52,446 nt of DNA from Lysobacter antibioticus (GTDB lineage: Bacteria > Pseudomonadota > Gammaproteobacteria > Xanthomonadales > Xanthomonadaceae). Location: contig NZ_CP013141.1 of NCBI RefSeq assembly GCF_001442535.1, positions 4,766,321-4,818,766 of the forward strand, written 5' to 3'. A model generated the notes under the pieces. The model ran no database searches and was not told the DNA's origin. It was given only the letters and a program-made list of their open reading frames with translations. This document shows positions 11,217 to 45,156 of this stretch, in pieces. Numbering within the stretch: position 1 is the first letter of the stretch; each line of letters starts with the position of its first letter. Position numbers and translations under genes: made by a program.

Positions 11217-11933
11217 GAAACCTCCCTCTGAAACGATAGATTCGTTGACGGCATGCCCAGCATGCCCCGGCATCTCACATGCCAACGGCTTCAATGGCAA
11301 TGCGCATGCCGCCGATGACGGCGCCGACCGACCTGATCGGCAATCGATCGCGGCCATCGATAGCGGATACACCGTAGAGATCCGCATTGGACCAGTGGAT
11401 AAACGGCCGACTGGGCAGCCGCTTCCGCGTTCTCGGCTATAGCTCCCGGCGCAGCCGATGTCGCATGCGCAACGCGCGTCTTGCCGGCTGCGCCTGAAGT
11501 GCCCGTCCGACCAGCCGGAACGCTTACAACGAGCCGAGTATCGCGCCTTGCAGGCCGTACGGGGCGGGTAAGATTTTTCCCTATGTCGTCGACAGCCAGC
11601 TTGATCGACAATCCCAGCGGCCTTCCCCCTGAGATGCCAAACGGGTGCGCCCGCGACCACATCGATCTGAAGAGGTCTTTATTCCAGCCCCGGGCAGGCC
11701 TGGCTGAAGACCTGGTAGCAATCCCCTCGGCGGCAACCAGAGCGCACTGTGCGCCGGCCCGCCGGATACATGAGCGCTCCAGGACCTGGCTCGCGCATCG
11801 CTTGCGCTTTATCGCGCAGCACTCGAACAGGCCAGGAAGCAAACAAAGCCGCTCTTGCATGATCGCGGTCGAAGCGCCTGCTCCAAGGCCTCGGCAGCAT
11901 GCATGCACCACCACGCAACCGGAAACCGCGTCC
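11217..11933. other. Intergenic region between mepB and the candidate effector
   Basis: About 720 bp. An in-frame extension of the effector reaches 11481, but it lacks family similarity and its codons look irregular. One stretch (LIDNPSGLPPEMPNGC, near 11605) looks weakly protein-like and could be a remnant. No confident gene or promoter was found. Confidence 0.4.
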
Positions 11934-13109
11934 ATGCCCTTTGCAGTCTATCGCGCAGACAATCGAGCCCCCGAGCAGATCGCGACCACGGGATTTCAGG
12001 CCCGAGTGCCGCTGGATGAAGTATCGGCGCGCCAGCTGATCAATCGCTCGCTGGTCGATGCCAACACACCGCTGCAGCTCCCCAAAGCGCACGGGAACAC
12101 GATTGCCGAGTACTTCAATGCGACGAAACAGCAACCGACCTTAGTCGGCCTGCCTGCTCTTTACGACCAGATTCGCAAGGAGACCAGCGGCACCACCATG
12201 CACGTATCCACATCGCCCAGCACCGGGGTCGGCGGCTTCGAGCATCGCAAGAATCTGTATCAGATCGAACTCCCTGTCGAACGCATGTATGCGTGGGAGA
12301 TCGATCCTTCGCGAAAGAATCGCATCGTCGCGGCGCCAAGAACGATATCCGACCTCGACGAAACCCGTTCCGCTCGCGACCCCGCGACTGGAATTGCCTC
12401 AAGCAAGCCAGTTCTGCTGACCGACACGCCTACGATCGACGCTGCTCGAATCATCGCCATTTCAAGCCCGAGCGGAGACGGCGAAGTCGCATTCCTGACC
12501 GGTATCCCTAAGGAATGGATCAACCGATCGCGGAGCCTAGAACACAGCGGCCCCTGGCAAGCCATGCCTCAAGCCGTGGCGCACGCGGCAACCGGGCCAA
12601 CCGCGCAGGCCGCGCCGCTCCAACCCGCGCATACATCGAGCACCCCCCCGGCCGCCGCGGGGGCACCGGAGCGCCAAGCCAACGACGCACACCCGTATGC
12701 GAACCCCGCGCATGGTTTCAACACCTTGTACAACCAGGCCCTGAGCGGCATCGAAAGACTCCCCGTCAACGCAAATCTGTCGCCATCGGCCCGCGGAGAG
12801 AACGCGGCCTTGTTAGTCGATGCAGCCCGGCTGGCGTCGCCGCCGTTGGAACGGATCGACTCGGTCGCCCTCGGGAAGAACGGTGGCCTGTTCGCGATAC
12901 AGGGCGCGCAAAACGACCCGGCCAGCAGACACGTACTATTGGACAAGCCTGCCGCGCTTCCCGCTGCGCAGTCGCCCAACCCGCCACCCGCACAGCGCTC
13001 TGCACCCGAGCCCAGCGGCCCGCAACAATCCGTCAATGCGTTGCGGCAGATGTTCGAATCCGTGCAGGAACCGTCTGCCGCCGCAGTTCCGGGCCCACGT
13101 CGGCATTGA
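11934..13109 (+). CDS. Candidate T4SS effector: ADP-ribosyltransferase-like N-terminus, XVIPCD-like C-terminus
   Basis: A 391-residue protein with two parts. Residues 3-200 resemble the R-S-E class of ADP-ribosyltransferases (cholera/pertussis type): FAVYRADNR with Arg7 at the expected strand start, HVSTS at 90-94, and GEVAFLTGIPKEW at 183-195 matching the EV..LGGIP element that carries the catalytic Glu in cholera toxin (here Glu184). Residues 255-350 resemble the XVIPCD, the C-terminal signal by which Xanthomonas-type T4SS effectors bind VirD4: FNTLYNQALSGIERL, ENAALLVDAA, ERIDSVALGKNG, AIQGAQNDPASRHV. The linker is Pro/Ala-rich. I chose ATG 11934 because the fold begins immediately after it, although its ribosome site is weak. 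There is no signal peptide, as expected for T4SS substrates. Activity and delivery are inferred. No obvious ADP-ribosylhydrolase immunity gene is adjacent. Confidence 0.7.
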   Translation: MPFAVYRADNRAPEQIATTGFQARVPLDEVSARQLINRSLVDANTPLQLPKAHGNTIAEYFNATKQQPTLVGLPALYDQIRKETSGTTMHVSTSPSTGVGGFEHRKNLYQIELPVERMYAWEIDPSRKNRIVAAPRTISDLDETRSARDPATGIASSKPVLLTDTPTIDAARIIAISSPSGDGEVAFLTGIPKEWINRSRSLEHSGPWQAMPQAVAHAATGPTAQAAPLQPAHTSSTPPAAAGAPERQANDAHPYANPAHGFNTLYNQALSGIERLPVNANLSPSARGENAALLVDAARLASPPLERIDSVALGKNGGLFAIQGAQNDPASRHVLLDKPAALPAAQSPNPPPAQRSAPEPSGPQQSVNALRQMFESVQEPSAAAVPGPRRH

Positions 13110-24875: not shown

Positions 24876-26087
24876 TCAGCGTGAATGACCGGTCGCCCAT
24901 TCCGTCAGCGCCTTGCGCTCGCTCGGCTGCATCTGCGTGGCATTGCCGGGCGGCATGCGCTCGGTACCCACCGCTATCGCGATCTGACCGGCGTAGCGAG
25001 GCAAAGTGTCGGGAGTGAAGACGATCCCGCGAGGCGGCGAGGCCATGCCCGGATAGCTGGGTTGCGCAGCGTGGCAGGCTGCACACCGGCGCAGAACGAT
25101 CTCCTCCGCGAGCAAGGGGCGGTTATCGGTTGCGGGGCCATGCGCATGGCGCTCGATGCGAACTTGCTCCGCCCCATTCCGGGCCCACGCAAGCCAACCT
25201 GCTCCCAGGCCAACCGTCACTGCCGCACAAGCGGTGATCCAGCGAAATCGCGAGGGCATGACGCCGCCATTCCTGTGCGTCGCTTCAAGTATAAAACGCG
25301 ATATCACGCTAAGGACCAGAACCGTGGCGATGGTGAGAAAGGCGTGGCCATTGGCCCGTACGACGGCCCCCATATGGCTGGACAGCATCAGGAAGACTAC
25401 CGCCGGCAGGAGGAACGAGTGATGGTTACGTCGGTCCCAGAGCTGCTTTTTCTCCGGATCGGGACGCTCGCCTCTGACCAGGGCGTCCACCGCTTCGCGC
25501 GTCGCCGGGTAGAGGTACCACAAAATATTGGTAGTGATGGTCACCCCCAACATCGCGCCGATCTGGATCATGGCGCCGTGCTGCGAGAACTTACTGGCGT
25601 ACGCATAGACCCAGGCAAGAACATGGATCGCGCAGCAAAGAATGTAGGTGCGTCGATAAGAAAGCGGAATGCGGTTAATGATCTCGTTGATCAATGGGGC
25701 ACCCAACAACCCCAGCAACGAGAAAGCGATGGCCGCTCGCCCTGACATTGAAAGAACACCGGGGTCGATCAGATAGGCTTGGGGCTGGCGGTAATAGATG
25801 AGACCGAACAACACCAGGCCCGTGAAGAACAGCCAGCGAATCTGATTGAACGACCAGACCAGGCCTTCGAGTTCCGACGCCGTCGGCGCGGCCACTTTCG
25901 TGGTCCGCCAGAAGCCCAGGCTATGAGTATCCCAAACCTCCAACTCGGCGCTGGGACCGACCAATGGCCGAGCCCGGAATGCCAGGCGCCTGAGCCACAA
26001 GCCGAACCCCATCCATGCGACCGCAGCAAGCACATGCAACCAGCGGGCCATGTCGGCAACGAAATCGAGCAAGGTATCGACTATCAC
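24876..26087 (-). CDS. puuD: PuuD-type urate hydroxylase-like membrane protein with C-terminal cytochrome c
   Basis: The 403-residue protein has the PuuD layout. Multiple membrane helices (ARWLHVLAAVAWMGFGLWLR, LFFTGLVLFGLIYYRQP, GAMLGVTITTNILWYLYP) make up the urate-oxidase N-terminal domain to about residue 300. A c-type cytochrome follows: C335-A-A-C338-H339 in RRCAACHAAQP, with Met378 in ERMPPGN as likely axial ligand. PuuD proteins are inner-membrane enzymes that oxidise urate to 5-hydroxyisourate and pass electrons to the respiratory chain. The start is GTG 26087 with GGAAGG upstream. No other purine-degradation gene is adjacent, and it has two divergent paralogues at 40032 and 42101, so the true substrate may differ from urate. 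Confidence 0.8.
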   Translation of the reverse strand: MIVDTLLDFVADMARWLHVLAAVAWMGFGLWLRRLAFRARPLVGPSAELEVWDTHSLGFWRTTKVAAPTASELEGLVWSFNQIRWLFFTGLVLFGLIYYRQPQAYLIDPGVLSMSGRAAIAFSLLGLLGAPLINEIINRIPLSYRRTYILCCAIHVLAWVYAYASKFSQHGAMIQIGAMLGVTITTNILWYLYPATREAVDALVRGERPDPEKKQLWDRRNHHSFLLPAVVFLMLSSHMGAVVRANGHAFLTIATVLVLSVISRFILEATHRNGGVMPSRFRWITACAAVTVGLGAGWLAWARNGAEQVRIERHAHGPATDNRPLLAEEIVLRRCAACHAAQPSYPGMASPPRGIVFTPDTLPRYAGQIAIAVGTERMPPGNATQMQPSERKALTEWATGHSR

Positions 26088-37026: not shown

Positions 37027-37446
37027 ATGAACATAGATATCGAAAAGCTCAGCCTGTCGGAACTGACGTCCCTTCTGATCGCCGCGGAGCAGCGAAGGCA
37101 GTTGATATCCAGCCGTCGCCCCATCGCCTTAGTGCGTCGAAACGTGATCGCACTCGCGGCCCAGCACGGTTATACGATCGAAGAACTCTATGGGGATCGG
37201 CCGGTAGTTGAGATTGCCGGCAAGAAGCGGGCGCCGCGCCGAAAGGCGAGCAAGGTTGCCGCCAAGTACCGCGACCCGGAGAACAAGCGCAATACCTGGT
37301 CGGGTCGTGGGCGGATGCCGCTGTGGCTGGTCAAGAAAACGAAGTATGGCCGGAGCGTCACCGACTTCCTGATCCCCGGCCTGGCAAAACCGACCGCGCG
37401 CAAGAGCAGTTCAATAGGCCAACGAACACTCGTCAAGCAGCGCTGA
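37027..37446 (+). CDS. H-NS family nucleoid-associated protein
   Basis: The 139-residue protein has an N-terminal helical oligomerisation part (MNIDIEKLSLSELTSLLIAA) and the C-terminal H-NS DNA-binding domain with AAKYRDPENKRNTWSGRGRM and PLWL; the W-S/T-G-R-G-R segment inserts in the minor groove of AT-rich DNA. A basic linker (GKKRAPRRKASK) lies between. It resembles the Xrv-type H-NS proteins of xanthomonads. It is next to the cassette array and upstream of the Rieske/PuuD block, and could silence AT-rich or acquired DNA, but local action is only an inference. The ribosome site before ATG 37027 is weak. Confidence 0.85.
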   Translation: MNIDIEKLSLSELTSLLIAAEQRRQLISSRRPIALVRRNVIALAAQHGYTIEELYGDRPVVEIAGKKRAPRRKASKVAAKYRDPENKRNTWSGRGRMPLWLVKKTKYGRSVTDFLIPGLAKPTARKSSSIGQRTLVKQR

Positions 37447-37625
37447 CGCAGAATCCTCGAAGCCTGAGAAAGCTGCGCGGCTCCATTCGGCCTTTTATGG
37501 CCTAACAGCCGTGCCGCGATCGCGGCTCAGTCGATGCGCCAGCCCAGCAGCGTCGGTCGACCGTCAAAATCATAGACCTTTAGCGGCGCCCGTCGATCTC
37601 GACAATCCGGCGATGCCGCAGCCGC

Positions 37626-38606
37626 TCAGGCTTTGACCAGGCCAAGGTTTCGCAAGATTTTCCTATAGGCAGTGGATGCCATATCCGCGCCAAAGGATTG
37701 CTCGGAGTCGCTGGTCAGATCGATGTATCTGGGCCGTTGCCTTTCCACGACGGCAAGATCGTCCATCTGCACCTTTTGCGAGAATGCATTGACTTCCGCA
37801 TCCGAGCCAAGCCTCAATGATTCATCGAACTGGATCGGATAAAACCAGACGCTCTGTTCCTCGCTGACGGGGCATGCGCAATTGAAGATGGTGAACAGCC
37901 CGTCCGGAAAATAAATGTCCAGAATGGCGATAAAAGGCGCATGTATTCTGTAGGCGCGACGCCAGGCGAAATCCTTTGGCGACGGGTGGTCGAATGGATA
38001 ATTTCCAAGTGAACTGCTGTATTCAAAACCAAAGCCGCCGTCAAAGGATTCGACTTTATACGGCGGCATAGCCTCGGCAGTGCAATCGCTGAATGTCGTC
38101 CGATGTACGAATGGCAAGTGCGAAATATCCATGAAGCCTTCGACCTGTCGGCCAGCGGAAGCATTGACGTTCACCGGCGGCGCCACCACCAGCCGCTGGC
38201 TTTCACTCTCGCGCCCAAACCCAAGCTCATAGAATGCACCGGCTCCAAGGCTGGTCCACAGCAGCCCATGAGACTCAACGGCCGGATAGGAACAAAGATC
38301 GAACCTTTTCAAGTTCTGCACTTGGGGATGAGCTGGAATCCGGGTGCAGGCCCCCAGATGGGCGAATTGCAAGCCGTGGTAAGGGCATTGCAACCCCGCT
38401 TCATTCACAGCTCCTGCAGAGAGCGTTTCACCCCGATGCGGGCAGCGGTCATCTGCAACCACAACTTCACCTTGAATTTTATAGATCACCAGCGGCTTGC
38501 CAAGCAACACGGCCGCCAGCGGCTTACCTTCTTTCGTGGCTGCCTCGAGGTCCTGCAATCTGGCAACCGGGTAATAGAAATCCATGATGTTCTGTGAGTA
38601 GCTCAT
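37626..38606 (-). CDS. Rieske-type oxygenase alpha subunit A
   Basis: A 326-residue Rieske non-haem iron oxygenase. The [2Fe-2S] site is C55-P-H57-RG and C74-PYH77-G. The mononuclear iron site is in GRQVEGFMDISHLPFVHR, the D-x2-H-x4-H triad pattern. Length and order fit the VanA-like (phthalate/caffeine demethylase) family, which hydroxylates or demethylates aromatic and purine rings using electrons from a separate reductase. No reductase gene is seen in the operon. GGAGG six bases before ATG 38606 is an ideal ribosome site. It is the last gene of a minus-strand run, 61 bp after the MFS gene. It is clearly homologous to the second Rieske protein at 41152, and the two differ enough to have distinct substrates. 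Confidence 0.88.
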   Translation of the reverse strand: MSYSQNIMDFYYPVARLQDLEAATKEGKPLAAVLLGKPLVIYKIQGEVVVADDRCPHRGETLSAGAVNEAGLQCPYHGLQFAHLGACTRIPAHPQVQNLKRFDLCSYPAVESHGLLWTSLGAGAFYELGFGRESESQRLVVAPPVNVNASAGRQVEGFMDISHLPFVHRTTFSDCTAEAMPPYKVESFDGGFGFEYSSSLGNYPFDHPSPKDFAWRRAYRIHAPFIAILDIYFPDGLFTIFNCACPVSEEQSVWFYPIQFDESLRLGSDAEVNAFSQKVQMDDLAVVERQRPRYIDLTSDSEQSFGADMASTAYRKILRNLGLVKA

Positions 38607-38667
38607 AAAGCCTCCGACTGATCCGTCAGTAACGCCTCGACAGCGTGCTGCTCGACGACAGGACGGG

Positions 38668-40035
38668 TTAACCCGGTTCGCGCACGGCGCGATATCCGGT
38701 CAGATAGGTCCCCCACCAGGCCTGCAGCAGAGGCAGGACGACCATCAGTCCCATCGCACGAACCTCGCCGCGGCCCCCGCCTCCGTCCAGCCATCCGATG
38801 GCTGCCACCACCGCTACCGCGCCTAGCGCACCGCTGACGCGTTGCACGATGTTGACCAGCGTGGCCGCGCCGCCGATGTCCTTTCGGTCCACCGCGGCAT
38901 AGGCGGCCGCGGTGGTCGGATTGGTCGTCCAGGCCAACCCGATGCCGCGAACAAACATGAACATCGCCGCGATGTCGGACGGCACGGATAGCAGGGCAAA
39001 TGGCGCCGCAGACACGGCCAGCATGGCGGCTCCGGCCAGGACCACCGGCCGCGGGCCGAAGCGGTCCACCAAGTGGCCGGCGAGATACAGCGCGGATGAG
39101 GTTCCGGCCCCCATGAAAACCAACATCATGCCGATTTGCGAGTAACTCATCTCTTGCTGGGCGTGGAAGTACAGCGGGAACAGTAAAAGCCCCCCGAACA
39201 GGTTTGCGCTGTTTCCCACGGCCAGCAGCGACGACGCGCGGAACTGGGGATTTCGCATCAGATCGAGCGCCAGCAGCGACGATGGGCTCGTGCGCGCCAC
39301 CGCGATGAAGAGAGCCAGCAACATGGCGCCGCCGCCGATAAACAGCCAACCGTTTCCGGAAGGGTAGCGAGAGGTGATCTCCGACGCGCCGTACAGAGCC
39401 AAAGGCAGCCCGGTAACGATGAGGAAAAACTGTCCCAGAGGAAGTTTGAGGCCGTGCTGGGCCCTGCCCGCCGGCATCACCTTCGCCGCCCATACCGCGG
39501 CGATCGCTCCTAACGGCACGTTGATCCAGAACAGCCAGCGCCATGAGGCGACATCGACCAACCAGCCACCTATGCCCGGCCCGATGGCGGCGGCCAGGCT
39601 GATCAAGGTGCCGACCACGCCGAGGACGCGGCCGAGTTGGTCGCGCTCGGCGCCTCCTACCAGGATGGCGTGCCCGGTCGGCAGCAGGATTCCGGCAGCC
39701 AGCCCCTGGGCGATACGGGCGGCAATCAGCGCGTCGAGGCTGGCCGCAAACGCACAGCCTATCGAGGCCGCGATGAAGGCGGCCAGCGCGACGCCCCAGA
39801 TCCGTCCATGCCCGAACCGGTGGCCGAACCATGTCGAGGTCGGCAGCGAAACGGCGATGGCGATGAGATAGCTGGTGATGACCCACTGCGCGTCTTCGAG
39901 GGGGGCATTCAGATCCGCTTGAACACAGACAAGAGCGAGCGCGGCGAGAGTGGCGTCCAGCATCACCAGCATGCCCCCCATGCCGGACACCAGGCCGATA
40001 GACCATACTCGTCGCGATACCTGTGAGGTGCTCAT
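38668..40035 (-). CDS. MFS transporter, DHA2/EmrB-QacA type
   Basis: The 455-residue protein has about 12-14 membrane helices and the family signatures: LDATLAALALVCVQADLNAP in helix 1 (D1 motif), WVITSYLIAIAVSLPTSTWF, GRIWGVALAAFIAASIGCAF and GPGIGGWLVDVASWRWLFWI (motif C region). DHA2 members export drugs and small metabolites with proton influx. The ATG at 40035 overlaps the TGA of the PuuD-like gene (ATGA), so the two are translationally coupled. In context it most likely exports the product, or imports the substrate, of the Rieske/PuuD enzymes. A degenerate fragment of a second copy lies at 44780-44866. Confidence 0.9.
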   Translation of the reverse strand: MSTSQVSRRVWSIGLVSGMGGMLVMLDATLAALALVCVQADLNAPLEDAQWVITSYLIAIAVSLPTSTWFGHRFGHGRIWGVALAAFIAASIGCAFAASLDALIAARIAQGLAAGILLPTGHAILVGGAERDQLGRVLGVVGTLISLAAAIGPGIGGWLVDVASWRWLFWINVPLGAIAAVWAAKVMPAGRAQHGLKLPLGQFFLIVTGLPLALYGASEITSRYPSGNGWLFIGGGAMLLALFIAVARTSPSSLLALDLMRNPQFRASSLLAVGNSANLFGGLLLFPLYFHAQQEMSYSQIGMMLVFMGAGTSSALYLAGHLVDRFGPRPVVLAGAAMLAVSAAPFALLSVPSDIAAMFMFVRGIGLAWTTNPTTAAAYAAVDRKDIGGAATLVNIVQRVSGALGAVAVVAAIGWLDGGGGRGEVRAMGLMVVLPLLQAWWGTYLTGYRAVREPG

Positions 40036-41048
40036 GGCACGGGGCTGCGCGAGACCGCCCTTGCGGACGGCACGCCGGCATCTGCAGCGATGAAGGGAAT
40101 GTCTGCAGGTGCGTCAGCCTTGGCCTGAAGATCGGCCTTGTGCTCGAAGCCTGCCAACCACGCCAATGCCATCGCCAGAGCGAACGCGGCGGCGACGGCT
40201 GCCCTGCGAAGTCGCGTCGGCATGGTGCCGCCGTTGCGATGGATGATCTCCAATACATGGCGCGAAGCCACGCTGAGGGCCAGTACGGTGGCGATGGTAA
40301 CGAACGCATGGCCGTTGGCTTTTATGGCGCCGCCAAAGTGATTGGACAGCATCAGGAAGACCACGGCGGGCAGGAGAAACGAGTGCTGGTTGCGTCGATC
40401 CCAGTACAGCTTCTTGATCGGGTCGAATCGCTCGCCCCGCATCACTGCGGCCATCGCCTCGCGCGTCGCCGGATAGAGATAACCCAGGATATTGACCGAT
40501 ACGGTTATTCCAAGCATCGCGCCGATCTGAATCATCGCGCCTTGCTGCGCGAACAGATTCGCGTAGAGCGATGTCCAGGCCAGAACATGGACGGCGCACG
40601 CGGCGTAATAGATGGCCTGGCGGTTCAGCGGGATGCGATTGACCGCCTCATTGATCAGCGGGGCACCAATGAATCCCGCCAGCGAAAGGGCGATTGCTGC
40701 GCGAGACGACAGCGACGGGTCGCTGGGGTCGAGCAGGTAGATCTGCGGTTGCCGGTAATAAATCAGGCTGAAAAGGATTAAGCCGGTGCCGAACAGCCAA
40801 CGGATCAGATTGAAAGACAAGACCAGTCGTTCGAGATCGGATGCACTGGGATGAGTGATTCTTTCCGTTTTCCAGAACCCGAGGCTATGCGTGTCCCAGA
40901 CCTCGACATCCGCCGCCGAGCTGAGGAATGGACGGGCCCTCATTACCAGCCTGCGCAGCCACAGCACAAAGCCCATCCAGGCGATAGCGGCAATGACATG
41001 CAGCCAGCGCACGATGTCGGTCATGAAATCGATCAAAGCATCCATCAT
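40032..41048 (-). CDS. PuuD-like membrane protein lacking the cytochrome c domain
   Basis: A 338-residue protein homologous to the membrane part of PuuD (VRWLHVIAAIAWMGFVLWLR, EVWDTHSLGFWKTERI, LIYYRQPQIYLLDP, GAMIQIGAMLGITVSVNILG, HSFLLPAVVFLMLSNHFGG). Unlike its two paralogues in this window it stops shortly after the last helix with a Pro/Ala-rich tail (SRSPVP) and has no CxxCH. It must either use an external electron acceptor, such as the cytochrome domain of the partner at 42101, or have lost oxidase function. ATG 41048 (or the ATG directly following) has GGAGGAGG upstream. The stop overlaps the start of the MFS gene; the Rieske B gene ends 103 bp upstream. Confidence 0.85.
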   Translation of the reverse strand: MMDALIDFMTDIVRWLHVIAAIAWMGFVLWLRRLVMRARPFLSSAADVEVWDTHSLGFWKTERITHPSASDLERLVLSFNLIRWLFGTGLILFSLIYYRQPQIYLLDPSDPSLSSRAAIALSLAGFIGAPLINEAVNRIPLNRQAIYYAACAVHVLAWTSLYANLFAQQGAMIQIGAMLGITVSVNILGYLYPATREAMAAVMRGERFDPIKKLYWDRRNQHSFLLPAVVFLMLSNHFGGAIKANGHAFVTIATVLALSVASRHVLEIIHRNGGTMPTRLRRAAVAAAFALAMALAWLAGFEHKADLQAKADAPADIPFIAADAGVPSARAVSRSPVP

Positions 41049-41151
41049 GATGGCCTCCTCCGATTAATCAGGCAGGCGTCTTATCCTGCGGCGCCGGTGC
41101 CGCCCCACTTCGGTCTGCGCTGAAAATTCGACAGCAGTGGAGAGGTGCTGC

Positions 41152-42111
41152 TCATGCCGTCGACAGCCCCATTTGTCGTAACAGACGCCTGTAATAAACG
41201 GATGCGAGGTCCGCTGCGAAAGAGGCTTCGGCGGCCTCCAACGGAAGATGGCGCGGCTGCTGGTTCTCGACCATCAAACGGTCTTCCGCGAAGATGCGGG
41301 CGTTGAAATCCTTGACCGCCTCGTCGGTGCCGATTTCGAAATCGAAACACACCGGGGAGAACAGCACGCTACGATCGCTCGCCACCGGGCTGGCGCCGTT
41401 CAAGATATTCAAGCGCCCATTGGGGAAATGCACTGTCAGGTGGGCCAAGTATGGGACGCGAACGTCGAAGCTGCGACGCCAGACGAAGTCCTGCGCAGTC
41501 ATTCCGCTGCCGACGGCGTAGTTCGAGACCGTGCTGCAGTAATCGAAACGCAAGCCGTCCTCGTCGACCTGGACGGAGTAAGCAGGCACGGCCGTGTTGG
41601 CAGGATCGGCAAACGTTGTGGTGTGCACGTGTGCGAAATGGGCCACGTCGATGAAGCCCTCTACTTGTCGCCCCGCACTGGCGGCGATCGGAACCGGATC
41701 GGGCGTCACTTTGCGGAATGCCGGATCGTCCCAGTCGGTGCTCAGTTCCGGAAACGGCGAAGGCGAAGTCCCAAGGCAGGTCCAGACCAATCCATAACGC
41801 TCCACGGCCGGGTAAGTAGAGAGCCGGAACTGCTGGGACGGGGTGAGATGGGGATGCGCCGGTATATCGGTGCAGCGCCCCTCCTGCCCGAATGCCAAGC
41901 CGTGGTAGGGGCATATCAAGGCGCCATCTCGATGCTGCCCCAAGCTAAGCCGCATACCGCGGTGCGGGCAACGATCGGCGGCCACCACGACGTCTTGGCC
42001 GGCCCGATACAGCACGAGGTCGGTTTCCAACAGCAATGCGCTGACGGGGCGTTCGCGAACGTCTTCACTGCGCGCTATCGGATACCAATAAGGGAGCAGC
42101 TCAGCGTGCAT
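41152..42111 (-). CDS. Rieske-type oxygenase alpha subunit B
   Basis: A 319-residue Rieske oxygenase with C48-P-H50-RG and C67-PYH70-G for the [2Fe-2S] cluster and GRQVEGFIDVAHFAHVH for the catalytic iron. The C-terminal part (DFVWRRSFDVRVPYLAHLTV) is the VanA-type catalytic fold. It is homologous to the protein at 37626 over its full length. Rieske enzymes of this group act on small aromatics and on oxopurines (HpxD, NdmA/B). ATG 42111 lies inside the 3' end of the PuuD-like gene (11-nt overlap), so the two are translationally coupled and probably act in sequence. No reductase partner is encoded nearby. Confidence 0.88.
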   Translation of the reverse strand: MHAELLPYWYPIARSEDVRERPVSALLLETDLVLYRAGQDVVVAADRCPHRGMRLSLGQHRDGALICPYHGLAFGQEGRCTDIPAHPHLTPSQQFRLSTYPAVERYGLVWTCLGTSPSPFPELSTDWDDPAFRKVTPDPVPIAASAGRQVEGFIDVAHFAHVHTTTFADPANTAVPAYSVQVDEDGLRFDYCSTVSNYAVGSGMTAQDFVWRRSFDVRVPYLAHLTVHFPNGRLNILNGASPVASDRSVLFSPVCFDFEIGTDEAVKDFNARIFAEDRLMVENQQPRHLPLEAAEASFAADLASVYYRRLLRQMGLSTA

Positions 42112-43381
42112 GTCCGGTTGCCCATTCAGTCACTGCCTTGCGCTCGTCGGGTTGCATATCCGTAGCGTTGCCGGGCGGCATGCGTTCGCTCTGCACTACA
42201 GCGGCGATCAGGCCGGCATAGAGCGGCATGGTTTCGGACGTGAAGACGATTCCGCGCGGAGCTGAGGCCATGCCAGGGAAGCTGGGTTGCGCGGCGTGGC
42301 AAACTGCGCAGCGCCGTTGAACGATCGCATCAGCGCGCAATGGCGCCGCATCCCTGGAGGCTGAGCTCGTAATCGAACTCGCGCTAGAGTGCTCGGGCGG
42401 GTGCGTGACCGGGTGCGCGGCACTGCTTGCCGAGACCTGTGTGCTGGCAGGAACGGCGACCGGTTTGGCCGGAGTACGCGGCAAAGCCATCCAGGTTATC
42501 CCCAGCGCGAGCGCCACGACCGCAGTCGCAGTGATCCAGCGGGGTTCGATCGGCGTGACCCCGCCATTGTGGTGGGTGGCGTCGAGGACCCATCGAGCAA
42601 CCACGCTCACAGCCAATATGGTGGTGATGGTAAGGAAAGGGTGGCCGTTATCCCGGACGAGACTTCCCATGTGGCTGGAAAGCATCAGGAAGACGATCGC
42701 TAAAGTGATGTACGCATGGCGGCCTCGCCGATCCCAGTACTGCCTGTCGATGGGGTCCGGCTGCTCGCCCTTCAGCACCGCGTTATACGCCTTGCGCATC
42801 CTGGGATAGAGGTACCACAAGACATTGAAGGCAATCACTACGCCCAGCATGGCGCCGATCTGGATCATGGCGCCGTGCTGGGAGAACAGGTTCGCATACA
42901 GCCCCACCCAGGCGAGGAGATGAGCGATGGATGCGGTCATGTACAGAGTTTTGAAGTGCAGCGGTATGCGATTGACGAACTCGTTGAGCACAGGCGCGCC
43001 CACCAGGCCAAACAGCGAGGCTGCGATCGCTTCGCGGGCCGTCAGCGCAGCGATGCTCGGGTCGACCAAGTACGCCAGAGGTTGCCGATAGTAGATCAGG
43101 CAGAACAGCACGATGCCGGTGCCGACCAGCCAGCGAATCTGATTGAACGACCAAACCAGGCCGTCCAGCTCTTCGGCAGTCGGTGCTGCGACTTTCGAGG
43201 TCCGCCAGAACGACAGGCTGTGCGTGTCCCAGACCTCCATCTCGGACCGCTGATCCAGGAGCGGTTTGGATCGCAGCGTAAGACGCCTTATCCAAAGACC
43301 GGCACCCAGCCAAGCGAATGCAGAGAGTACATGCAGCCAACGGGCCACATCGGCCGTTAAGTCGAGCAATGCGCCTATCAT
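42101..43381 (-). CDS. PuuD-like membrane oxidase with C-terminal cytochrome c
   Basis: The 426-residue protein has the multi-helix PuuD domain (ARWLHVLSAFAWLGAGLWIR, EVWDTHSLSFWRTSKVAAPT, SHMGSLVRDNGHPFL), then a Ser/Ala-rich linker of about 50 residues and a cytochrome c domain with C358-A-V-C361-H362 and Met401 in ERMPPGN. The cytochrome domain is nearly identical in pattern to that of the paralogue at 24876. It should oxidise urate or a related heterocycle at the membrane and feed electrons to the respiratory chain. I start it at ATG 43381, preceded by AGGAGAT; the longer frame to 43648 is not conserved. It overlaps the Rieske B start by 11 nt. Confidence 0.85.
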   Translation of the reverse strand: MIGALLDLTADVARWLHVLSAFAWLGAGLWIRRLTLRSKPLLDQRSEMEVWDTHSLSFWRTSKVAAPTAEELDGLVWSFNQIRWLVGTGIVLFCLIYYRQPLAYLVDPSIAALTAREAIAASLFGLVGAPVLNEFVNRIPLHFKTLYMTASIAHLLAWVGLYANLFSQHGAMIQIGAMLGVVIAFNVLWYLYPRMRKAYNAVLKGEQPDPIDRQYWDRRGRHAYITLAIVFLMLSSHMGSLVRDNGHPFLTITTILAVSVVARWVLDATHHNGGVTPIEPRWITATAVVALALGITWMALPRTPAKPVAVPASTQVSASSAAHPVTHPPEHSSASSITSSASRDAAPLRADAIVQRRCAVCHAAQPSFPGMASAPRGIVFTSETMPLYAGLIAAVVQSERMPPGNATDMQPDERKAVTEWATGHAR

Positions 43382-43680
43382 CGCGGAATCTCCTAGCCTG
43401 CCTCCGGGCGGCTCAAGCGCGGCCCGGGCGCGCCGAGTGTTCGGCATGCGGACTTCACGCTCGGCCGGTGTGGCCACGGCGATAGACGCTCTGAAGCCCC
43501 GAGAAGCAGGGGCAACCATTCGAGCCGCTCGCAGCAGCTGCGCTGATTGTTTCGCAAACCCCCTCTCCTTTCCTTGCCAGGTCAGCGCGGCGAATGCGGT
43601 CCGTAACGTAACGCTATCGGACAGGACTCGGGCTACTTCTGTGCACACACCTCATAACGCCGGACGCTCACTATTTCTCA

Positions 43681-44280
43681 CTACGCCATAAGCGACGACG
43701 GCGCGATGGCATCAGGGCGCACGAGGTTTACCGCTTCGATCAGCCCACAGTCGCGCGCGACCGCGTAGTCCGCCGCCGCCCAGAAAATCGGCAGCCAGCC
43801 GCGTGGAAACACGCGATTCAACTGGGAGCGCACTGCCCCATGTTCGGCGTAATCGGCACGCAATCGTTTCAGCCCTGCACAGCTGAGAAAGACCCCGTCG
43901 TTGCGGGACGCGAATCTCTCATGAGCAGGCGGCTCGCGAGCAATACTCTCAGGCATTACGTCCCGCCAATCGGTCGCGTACTGGCCGAAATCGGGAAGCT
44001 CCAGCAACGCGGAAAAGCGGTAGTTGCTCGTATACCAGCAGCTGCGTAGCAGACCCGAAACTTTGGCCATGTTGTATGCATGCGCCTGGCACAGGCTCAT
44101 CCCCTCGGGGCGAGCGCGACCACTATGCGACAAAATGGCTTTCAGCCTGGCCGAGGCGTCCAGGCCCAGTCCTAGTTGCAGGCCCAGGCGCTCGATGGAC
44201 GCATCGCGGTCCATATCGTCGAAGTACAGGCTGTGTACTTCGGCCGGCGCAAACGGGTGATAGCTGATGTGAATACCCAT
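43681..44280 (-). CDS. Hypothetical 199-residue protein in the Rieske/PuuD block
   Basis: The product begins MGIHISYHPFAPAEVHSLYF and contains SGRARPEGMSLCQAHAYNMA, CWYTSNYRFSALLELPDFGQ, GLKRLRADYAEHGAVRSQ and a C-terminal PRGWLPIFWAAADYAVARD. There is no signal peptide or membrane segment, and no family is recognised. I use ATG 44280 because the protein-like character starts there; the frame continues to 44382 but overlaps the next gene. It lies 58 bp after the DUF1508 gene and 300 bp before the PuuD-like gene on the same strand. It could be part of the same transcription unit. Confidence 0.6.
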   Translation of the reverse strand: MGIHISYHPFAPAEVHSLYFDDMDRDASIERLGLQLGLGLDASARLKAILSHSGRARPEGMSLCQAHAYNMAKVSGLLRSCWYTSNYRFSALLELPDFGQYATDWRDVMPESIAREPPAHERFASRNDGVFLSCAGLKRLRADYAEHGAVRSQLNRVFPRGWLPIFWAAADYAVARDCGLIEAVNLVRPDAIAPSSLMA

Positions 44281-44338
44281 GAAGCGTTCCGTCCCTAGAC
44301 TGACCGACCGCACGGCATGAACAATGGCTGCTGATTCA

Positions 44339-44581
44339 TCAGCCGTTGACTTCCAGTATTTCAGCGCCCCCCAAGTTCGCAATGATGACGATGGTCCGCA
44401 TCATCGAGTCCTTGTCGGGGTAGGACTCACCATGGGCCATCGGCTCCCCATTGCCGCCGACCAGCCGCCAGCGCCACTGCCCATCGGTCAGCGACCCGGC
44501 CAGAAACGCATTGGACAATGAGCGCTGCCCGCCCGGTTTCATGCCTTCCCGATAAACCTCGAAGTGCGGTTTGCCAGCCAT
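44339..44581 (-). CDS. YegP/DUF1508 family small protein
   Basis: An 80-residue protein with one DUF1508 (YegP) unit: HFEVYREGMKPGGQ, GQWRWRLVGGNGEPMAHGES, YPDKDSMMRTIVIIANLGGA. Usual YegP proteins carry one or two such units of about 50 residues of unknown function. GGGGGAGGGAG before ATG 44581 is an excellent ribosome site. It is the first intact gene of the minus-strand block that leads to the PuuD/Rieske/MFS genes. A regulatory or stress role has been suggested for the family, but nothing in the sequence tells more. Confidence 0.78.
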   Translation of the reverse strand: MAGKPHFEVYREGMKPGGQRSLSNAFLAGSLTDGQWRWRLVGGNGEPMAHGESYPDKDSMMRTIVIIANLGGAEILEVNG

Positions 44582-45156
44582 GGCGCTCCCTCCCCCTGGT
44601 TACTGGGACAACGGCGCTCGACGCTCCTTGCGGCCAACGGTCACCGGAGGCGGCCGGGGCACATCGCCGGGGGCACTTAGGGCCCGCATCTGACCGAAGA
44701 CGCGCAGGCCTTGCTGTTCGCGGCCATACAGCTCCTCGAAGTCGGACAAGAACTCAGGCGCGACCACCCGCGAATGTCGTTCGGTGCATCGCGGAATAGA
44801 CGGCGGTGGTCGCCTGAGTCCAGGCCAGTCCGATGCCGCGGACTGTAGATGAAGATAAAGACCCCGGACTTCGGCTGGGTCTTACTTTGTCGATTTCGAA
44901 GGTTGAAGTTGTATCTGTTGCGACGGAACACCTGATGCATGGGGCAGCCCATGTTGATCAAGATTCGAGGCGACCTGGAAGTGCGACTGCATGCGCTCTC
45001 TTAATGTGCTTTGCCCCGAATCAGCCGTCGCTACACGTCGAAGCGCAACTACGATTTGCGCTTATGTTCAGATACCGCCCTTCGGGCTACGAATAGCATT
45101 GACTCGGTCTTAGAAGCTGATAGATGCTGGCCGTGAGAGCGCCTACCGAGGGATTA
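44582..45156. other. Divergent region with gene remnants
   Basis: About 575 bp between the DUF1508 gene and the lipoprotein gene. It contains the MFS remnant at 44780-44866. A minus-strand frame ending at 44600 (VVAPEFLSDFEELYGREQQG followed by LRVFGQMRAL) may be the tail of another lost gene. The sequence near 44860-45150 is AT-richer and should hold promoters for both directions; no clear boxes were assigned. Confidence 0.45.
44780..44866 (-). pseudogene. Remnant of an MFS transporter gene
   Basis: On the minus strand one frame reads VRGIGLAWTQATTAVYSAMH, matching VRGIGLAWTTNPTTAAAYAA of the intact MFS protein encoded at 38668-40035 (DNA about 38890-38967). The preceding FIFI, matching MFMFV of the same protein, is in another frame, so a frameshift separates them. 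Similarity ends abruptly on both sides. This is a short relic of a second DHA2-type transporter. Confidence 0.7.

Follow-up and report, generated by a model that had tools for sequence, protein, structure and literature searches.

What would a bacterium make with two Rieske oxygenases, two proteins related to PuuD, the membrane urate oxidase, and an exporter-like transporter, all encoded in one operon? The question is raised by a 52,446-nt stretch of Lysobacter antibioticus DNA (contig NZ_CP013141.1, positions 4,766,321 to 4,818,766; hereafter, the window), which is part of a 5.77-Mb single-contig genome. Between 37626 and 43381, its minus strand carries five genes in the order PudB-RieB-PudA-MFS-RieA (MFS, major facilitator superfamily), and a sixth, Unk, lies upstream at 43681–44280; the names Pud, Rie, and Unk were coined in this analysis. 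The answer toward which we lean, by a modest degree, is that the operon oxidizes a purine or 8-oxopurine, that the product is probably exported, and that the system is not one of ordinary urate catabolism.

The five genes are arranged as in the original prediction, which had placed overlapping frames at 40032–40035 and 42101–42111: PudA and the MFS gene overlap by 4 nt, PudB and RieB by 11 nt, and the remaining gaps are 103 and 61 nt. The gene set itself had to be amended, by the addition of Unk as a conserved member, by a probable start for PudB at 43381, and by a third PF06181 protein, PudC (24876–26087, minus strand), which lies ~11.5 kb from the operon. Unk, the first gene of the conserved unit, encodes a 199-amino acid protein of no recognized family that starts at MGIH (the open reading frame list gives a start at 44382). 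It is separated from PudB by a partly conserved stretch of 299 nt (43382–43680, minus strand); the spacer is 306 nt in L. antibioticus 13-6, and 511 and 526 nt in the two copies of Lysobacter sp. ISL-50. The start of PudB is most likely at 43381, which would yield 426 amino acids, and PudB homologues are mostly 422–426 amino acids long; alternative starts are those of the protein-database entry for the window's protein (P0144, 472 amino acids) and of the longest open reading frame, which begins at 43648. No Rfam RNA, including the xanthine/urate (NMT1) riboswitch, was detected in the window at the gathering threshold, and a scan for promoters and terminators gave site counts near those of shuffled sequences (2 vs. 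2.5, and 8 vs. 6.4).

Full-length RieB orthologues (87–95% identity) were found in two of the 19 other Lysobacter genomes, namely L. antibioticus 13-6 (one copy) and ISL-50 (two copies), making three carriers out of 20. The order Unk-PudB-RieB-PudA-MFS-RieA is kept in all four copies. In pairwise comparisons of these copies, the ratio of nonsynonymous to synonymous substitution rates (dN/dS) was 0.06–0.10 for RieA, 0.06–0.15 for RieB, 0.15–0.18 for MFS, 0.20–0.28 for PudB, 0.26–0.40 for PudA, and 0.22–0.34 for Unk, the last calculated over 214 columns, some of which lie 5′ of the likely start. All six genes are thus under purifying selection (dN/dS <1). Because the six-gene order recurs in four copies and dN/dS lies between 0.06 and 0.40, the gene set is more than a chance assembly. 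In the protein database, RieB orthologues form nine clusters at 69–95% identity, after which identity drops to ~53%. There are 20 Unk homologues, and all four that have an organism name are from Lysobacter; several RieB and Unk homologues appear to lie on the same contigs as Pud matches, as suggested by contigs of equal size. Among the 20 Lysobacter genomes, PF06181 proteins were confined to the three operon carriers. A third PF06181 protein is present in L. antibioticus 13-6 as well (G017:C4:21820-22674), and the four of ISL-50 are all inside its two operon copies.

The likely chemistry of the oxygenases was approached through their residues. RieB (41152–42111, minus strand) and the more diverged RieA (37626–38606, minus strand) both contain PF00355 and PF19112. 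RieB had 1133 protein matches at E ≤ 1e-20; among the best 120 of these, those from P0010 onward are ~48–53% identical, and P0019, an 84% match, is a fragment set apart from that group. P0103, a relative with 49% identity, bears the name “molybdenum cofactor-independent xanthine hydroxylase subunit HpxD.” No HpxD model of NCBIfam was matched. An alignment with 116 HpxD-like sequences has 82 columns with at least 97% conservation, of which RieB keeps 78 and, more weakly, RieA 66. In both proteins, the Rieske CxH..CxxH motif and the 2-His-1-carboxylate positions, which we take to be the metal ligands from the usual Rieske-type pattern, are intact. The PDB matches of RieB were, in rank order, SxtT, SxtDIOX, NdmA, and NdmB. 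Taken together, the HpxD-like residues and the presence of NdmA and NdmB among the matches agree with the purine type claimed earlier, and suggest that RieA and RieB are purine-type, HpxD-like Rieske enzymes. A tree that joined RieA and RieB as sisters (support 100/99) was set aside, as the RieA branch is very long (2.5) and the program warned of false joins.

The genomic company kept by related oxygenases points the same way. In a sample of the order, 19 of 398 genomes had a RieB-type match at E ≤ 1e-25. Ten relative loci were fetched and the neighbors of seven were scanned with Pfam (those of G205, G318, and G398 were left out); in five of the seven, relatives from other genera with 44–50% identity adjoin purine genes. 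The G349 locus encodes a reductase, a Xan_ur_permease, an adenosine deaminase, and a nucleoside hydrolase; G358 has a Xan_ur_permease and an adenosine deaminase; and G035 has a reductase, an adenosine deaminase, and a nucleoside hydrolase. Canonical PuuD and allantoicase accompany one copy in G291, the other copy having a reductase (a single neighbor was scanned), and in G267 they are joined by ureidoglycolate lyase. At the G020 locus, the neighbors are an amidohydrolase of generic type and a reductase that shares 69% identity with its G035 counterpart. Because of the HpxD-like residues and the purine neighborhoods of their relatives, the Rieske pair would be expected to act on purines.

These loci also qualify the idea that the composition of the operon has no counterpart. 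In G291 and G267, an HpxD-type Rieske protein and PuuD are encoded ~3 kb apart, together with allantoicase, so the pairing as such is not unique. It is nevertheless sparse, since only these two of the 18 other genomes of the order sample with such a Rieske protein contain a full-length PF06181 protein. The unusual features are that the set is duplicated and diverged, that it lacks known downstream enzymes, and that it includes an exporter-like MFS protein.

The PuuD-like proteins depart further from their known relatives. PudB (42101–43381, minus strand) combines a divergent PF06181 (Urate_ox_N) membrane domain with a C-terminal cytochrome c (CxxCH, Met), PudC likewise has a cytochrome c, and PudA (40032–41048, minus strand) is a divergent PF06181 protein without one. 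All three exceed the PF06181 cut-off, with scores of 138–149 bits. The family was matched in 75 of the 398 genomes of the order sample, 52 of them with a PuuD of at least 228 bits (some cut by contig ends); in that sample PudA, PudB, and PudC scored 139.7–149.3 bits, and the other stretches scored at most 46.7 bits (at most 74.9 summed per frame) and were mostly short frames, which resemble the variant with four transmembrane segments described by Doniselli et al. (2015; PMC4562309). In a phylum sample, PudA matched 119 of 398 genomes at E ≤ 1e-8; all but its own genome hold a single copy, at 24–32% identity and in frames of at least 399 amino acids except in G662 (contig end). The PudA frame has 343. 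A protein search in which the 8000 best candidates were scored gave, among the best 120 of 127 matches, 43 proteins with at least 50% local identity to PudA, after which identity fell to 33% or less. In a 60-row tree (every fifth PuuD row taken; P0144 and P0155 dropped), the Pud clade is split from PuuD by a long branch with 100/100 support. A search for clade members outside Lysobacter covered 385 genomes from the class to which G452 belongs; 44 of them gave matches at E ≤ 1e-40, with identities of 28–35% throughout and hence no member of the Pud clade. Among 159 plasmid records, no PudA homologue reached 60% identity, and the best 20 were at 30–31%. The clade does extend beyond Lysobacter, to the Inquilinus limosus protein P0158.

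We then compared 43 membrane-domain columns, up to PudA position 300, in which at most one of 77 PuuD proteins deviates, those proteins being a set drawn from the PudA query and hence biased toward its nearest relatives. For 18 of these columns, the residue is retained by 90% or more of the Pud clade. They include four invariant histidines (H17, H54, H222, and H237) as well as R14, W24, W51, and R219. Replaced or missing are S28, D35, Y59, Y83, T85, Y133, K217, S220, W249, and the Asn after H222. The retained histidines may be cofactor ligands, and the changed residues may reflect altered substrate contacts. The earlier description of these proteins as PuuD-like thus holds for their membership of the PF06181 membrane family; because the Pud clade has lost so many residues that are invariant in PuuD, it does not extend to reading them as urate oxidases. 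The CxxCH motif is present in PudB, PudC, and 72 of the 77 PuuD proteins (P0166, P0193, P0196, P0210, and P0231 are without it), and is lacking in PudA and its ten nearest homologues (P0121–P0130), as well as in the further clade members P0131, P0133, P0137, P0155, and P0162. P0162 and P0163, the latter with CxxCH, are encoded on contigs of equal size, echoing the PudA/PudB pair. An AlphaFold2 model of PudA has eight long helices, with a mean predicted local distance difference test (pLDDT) score of 82 that falls below 50 at residues 38–46 and 52–60. A Foldseek search of the PDB with this model gave no match at E ≤ 0.001, and no PDB relatives of PudA were found by sequence; with no fold match, no cofactor site could be transferred to it.

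The original prediction had noted no 5-hydroxyisourate (HIU) hydrolase, 2-oxo-4-hydroxy-4-carboxy-5-ureidoimidazoline (OHCU) decarboxylase, or Rieske reductase. The first two hold for the whole genome: Urah (PF00576) and Urad (PF09349) were matched in none of the eight Lysobacter genomes tested (G000, G005, and G017 among them), in searches that detected both proteins in G020 and G035 and were each positive in four of 14 controls. The third holds for the window, where one VanB-type query gave no match. With no Urah or Urad match in the genome and no VanB-type reductase match in the window, the earlier proposal that the system is not one of ordinary urate catabolism is supported. Xanthine dehydrogenase, sought with a single model (XdhB, TIGR02965), exceeded the cut-off in none of the 20 Lysobacter genomes and in one control genome; all 20 gave weaker molybdoenzyme matches (best 192 vs. 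the cut-off of 849.5 bits). This result fits a Rieske route. Allantoicase was likewise found in none of the 20 genomes, in a search that had no positive control. The MFS protein (38668–40035, minus strand) clearly matches Pfam MFS_1 and is DHA2/EmrB-like, its best NCBIfam match being TIGR00711 (206.4 bits, below the cut-off of 230.2).

By blastn of L021 and L022 against 30–50 kb of the window, similarity to the two ISL-50 copies spans 37650–44647 in one and 37538–44643 in the other, so that the shared block reaches at most from 37538 to 44647 (minus strand). Beyond it, one copy has only short repeats and matches to an H-NS region, and the other has no similarity. Three serine recombinases, one of which matches phage integrases (phrog_95), lie directly next to one ISL-50 copy together with replication genes of phage type (L021 4642–8065, L066); the copy is placed as if at the end of a prophage or carried as cargo. 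The G+C content of the operon is 0.613, compared with 0.659 on average over ten 20-kb samples taken from its own genome; because two of these samples are also at ~0.60, composition alone is not a mark of foreign origin. An H-NS-like gene (37027–37446, plus strand) lies at the RieA end, and one of the ISL-50 copies has related DNA at its Unk end (L021 16418–16844). A repeat of ~33–40 bases was matched six times in the 30–37 kb region (at about 30493, 30898, 31364, 34785, 36045, and 36510) and recurs beside one ISL-50 copy (L021 15446–15486). Elsewhere in the window, the protein encoded at 11481–13109 (plus strand) carries an X-Tfes XVIPCD domain (PF20410), the signal of Xanthomonadales type IV secretion effectors that act on rival bacteria.

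How does the operon compare with known systems? Klebsiella hpxDE act in the oxidation of hypoxanthine to xanthine and urate, according to Yu and Breaker (2020; PMC7373994), who cite earlier work. With this two-component HpxD/HpxE hydroxylase, RieA and RieB share the Rieske and VanA_C domains, the ligand positions, and most conserved residues; unlike it, the Lysobacter operon has two paralogues, one of them (RieA) strongly diverged, and no adjoining reductase. The Pud proteins share with PuuD (PF06181/DUF989) the eight-helix membrane domain and the four histidines, and PudB and PudC its cytochrome c, but they are only ~24–33% identical to it, have lost ten family-invariant polar or aromatic residues, and belong to a genome without a Urah or Urad match. 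The methylxanthine N-demethylases NdmA and NdmB are VanA-type Rieske enzymes acting on purines that RieB matches over nearly the full length, at 128 and 110 bits vs. ~320–356 for HpxD-like proteins, scores that come from different databases. The clusters of G035 and G349, from other genera of the same family, share an HpxD-like Rieske protein beside adenosine deaminase and nucleoside hydrolase (and permease in G349); unlike Lysobacter, they have a linked reductase, one such Rieske protein per genome at E ≤ 1e-25, and no PF06181 protein in either genome.

In the scheme we propose, RieB, and probably RieA, would be cytosolic HpxD-type hydroxylases that oxygenate a (hypo)xanthine- or guanine-like ring, an unlinked reductase supplying the electrons. 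As membrane oxidases of the PuuD fold, PudB and PudA would next draw electrons from the 8-oxopurine-like compound so formed. In PudB these would reach the protein's own periplasmic cytochrome c; PudA, which has none, would share that of PudB or use another acceptor. The DHA2-like MFS protein would then export the product. We infer the substrate, product, order of steps, electron route, and export of this scheme. As no HIU hydrolase or OHCU decarboxylase was found, the probable fate of the product is secretion, not breakdown to allantoin; with the known downstream enzymes not found and a DHA2-like MFS protein present, secretion of an oxidized purine is the most economical reading.

Several considerations weigh against this proposal. 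It is a prediction from sequence and models. Given the changed Pud residues, the Pud proteins may act on something other than urate, and H54 falls within the low-confidence stretch 52–60 of the PudA model. There is no reductase linked to the Rieske pair: the top VanB-type match in the same genome shares 40% identity and lies ~1.7 Mb away, at 3116739 (that in G017 is similar, and the best in ISL-50 is 32% identical). The MFS protein is exporter-like, but its direction of transport cannot be read from its sequence. The search for xanthine dehydrogenase used only one model; with allantoicase sought without a positive control and allantoinase not searched for, a downstream catabolic branch is possible. 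Nor does the scheme account for Unk: neither Pfam nor the PDB gave this protein a significant match (the top PDB hit, with E 0.036, was to a designed repeat protein), its AlphaFold2 model is poor (pLDDT 63.5), and a fold search from that weak model gave no result.

Purine-nitrogen catabolism would offer a different account, in which hypoxanthine is oxidized through xanthine and urate to HIU, which then decays spontaneously or is processed by unrecognized enzymes, and the MFS protein moves purines. The purine catabolic or salvage genes beside HpxD-like relatives in five of seven loci suit it, as does the report of Doniselli et al. (PMC4562309) that HIU and OHCU are metastable, decaying even when no enzyme acts on them, and that a very few genomes have urate oxidase without urah and urad. 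It is harder to reconcile with the failure to find Urah and Urad in eight of eight Lysobacter genomes, or allantoicase in 20 of 20 (the search without a positive control), with the lost PuuD-invariant residues, and with an EmrB/DHA2-like MFS protein; moreover, a single pass through the pathway seems to call for fewer paralogues than the two of the Rieske type and the two to three of the Pud type. We consider it rather unlikely.

Slightly less probable still is a biosynthetic operon acting on another heterocycle, with enzymes recruited from purine metabolism and an exported product. The two best PDB matches of RieB, SxtT and SxtDIOX, are biosynthetic Rieske enzymes whose scaffold is not a purine, and divergence is strong both in RieA and in the Pud clade; yet RieB keeps 78 of 82 HpxD-conserved positions, and the unit has no recognized scaffold-building gene. 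Detoxification, in which a toxic purine analogue from competitors or prey is oxidized and expelled, would accommodate the exporter-like MFS protein, the patchy distribution (3 of 20 genomes), and the phage-type integrase next to one copy, but resistance would hardly need so many oxidative steps; we think it improbable. Very improbable, in our view, is a closed redox loop in which Pud electrons from the oxidized purine return via PudA to the Rieske clusters, replacing a reductase and making a new exported purine-derived metabolite.

In a limited sample of the literature, no paper joined PuuD, urate, and Rieske enzymes, or Lysobacter with urate and purine degradation, and none dealt with this system. 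Returning to the favored reading, an oxidized and exported purine, its interest lies partly in the PuuD family. As portrayed by Doniselli et al. (2015; PMC4562309), full-length DUF989 proteins carry cytochrome c, serve purine degradation, and almost always occur with Urah and Urad. The Pud clade departs from this picture, with a conserved paralogue that has no cytochrome and with no Urah or Urad found in its genomes. It provides a set of natural residue swaps for locating the urate binding site and redox center of PuuD and, for Lysobacter, points to a purine-derived metabolite that is possibly secreted.

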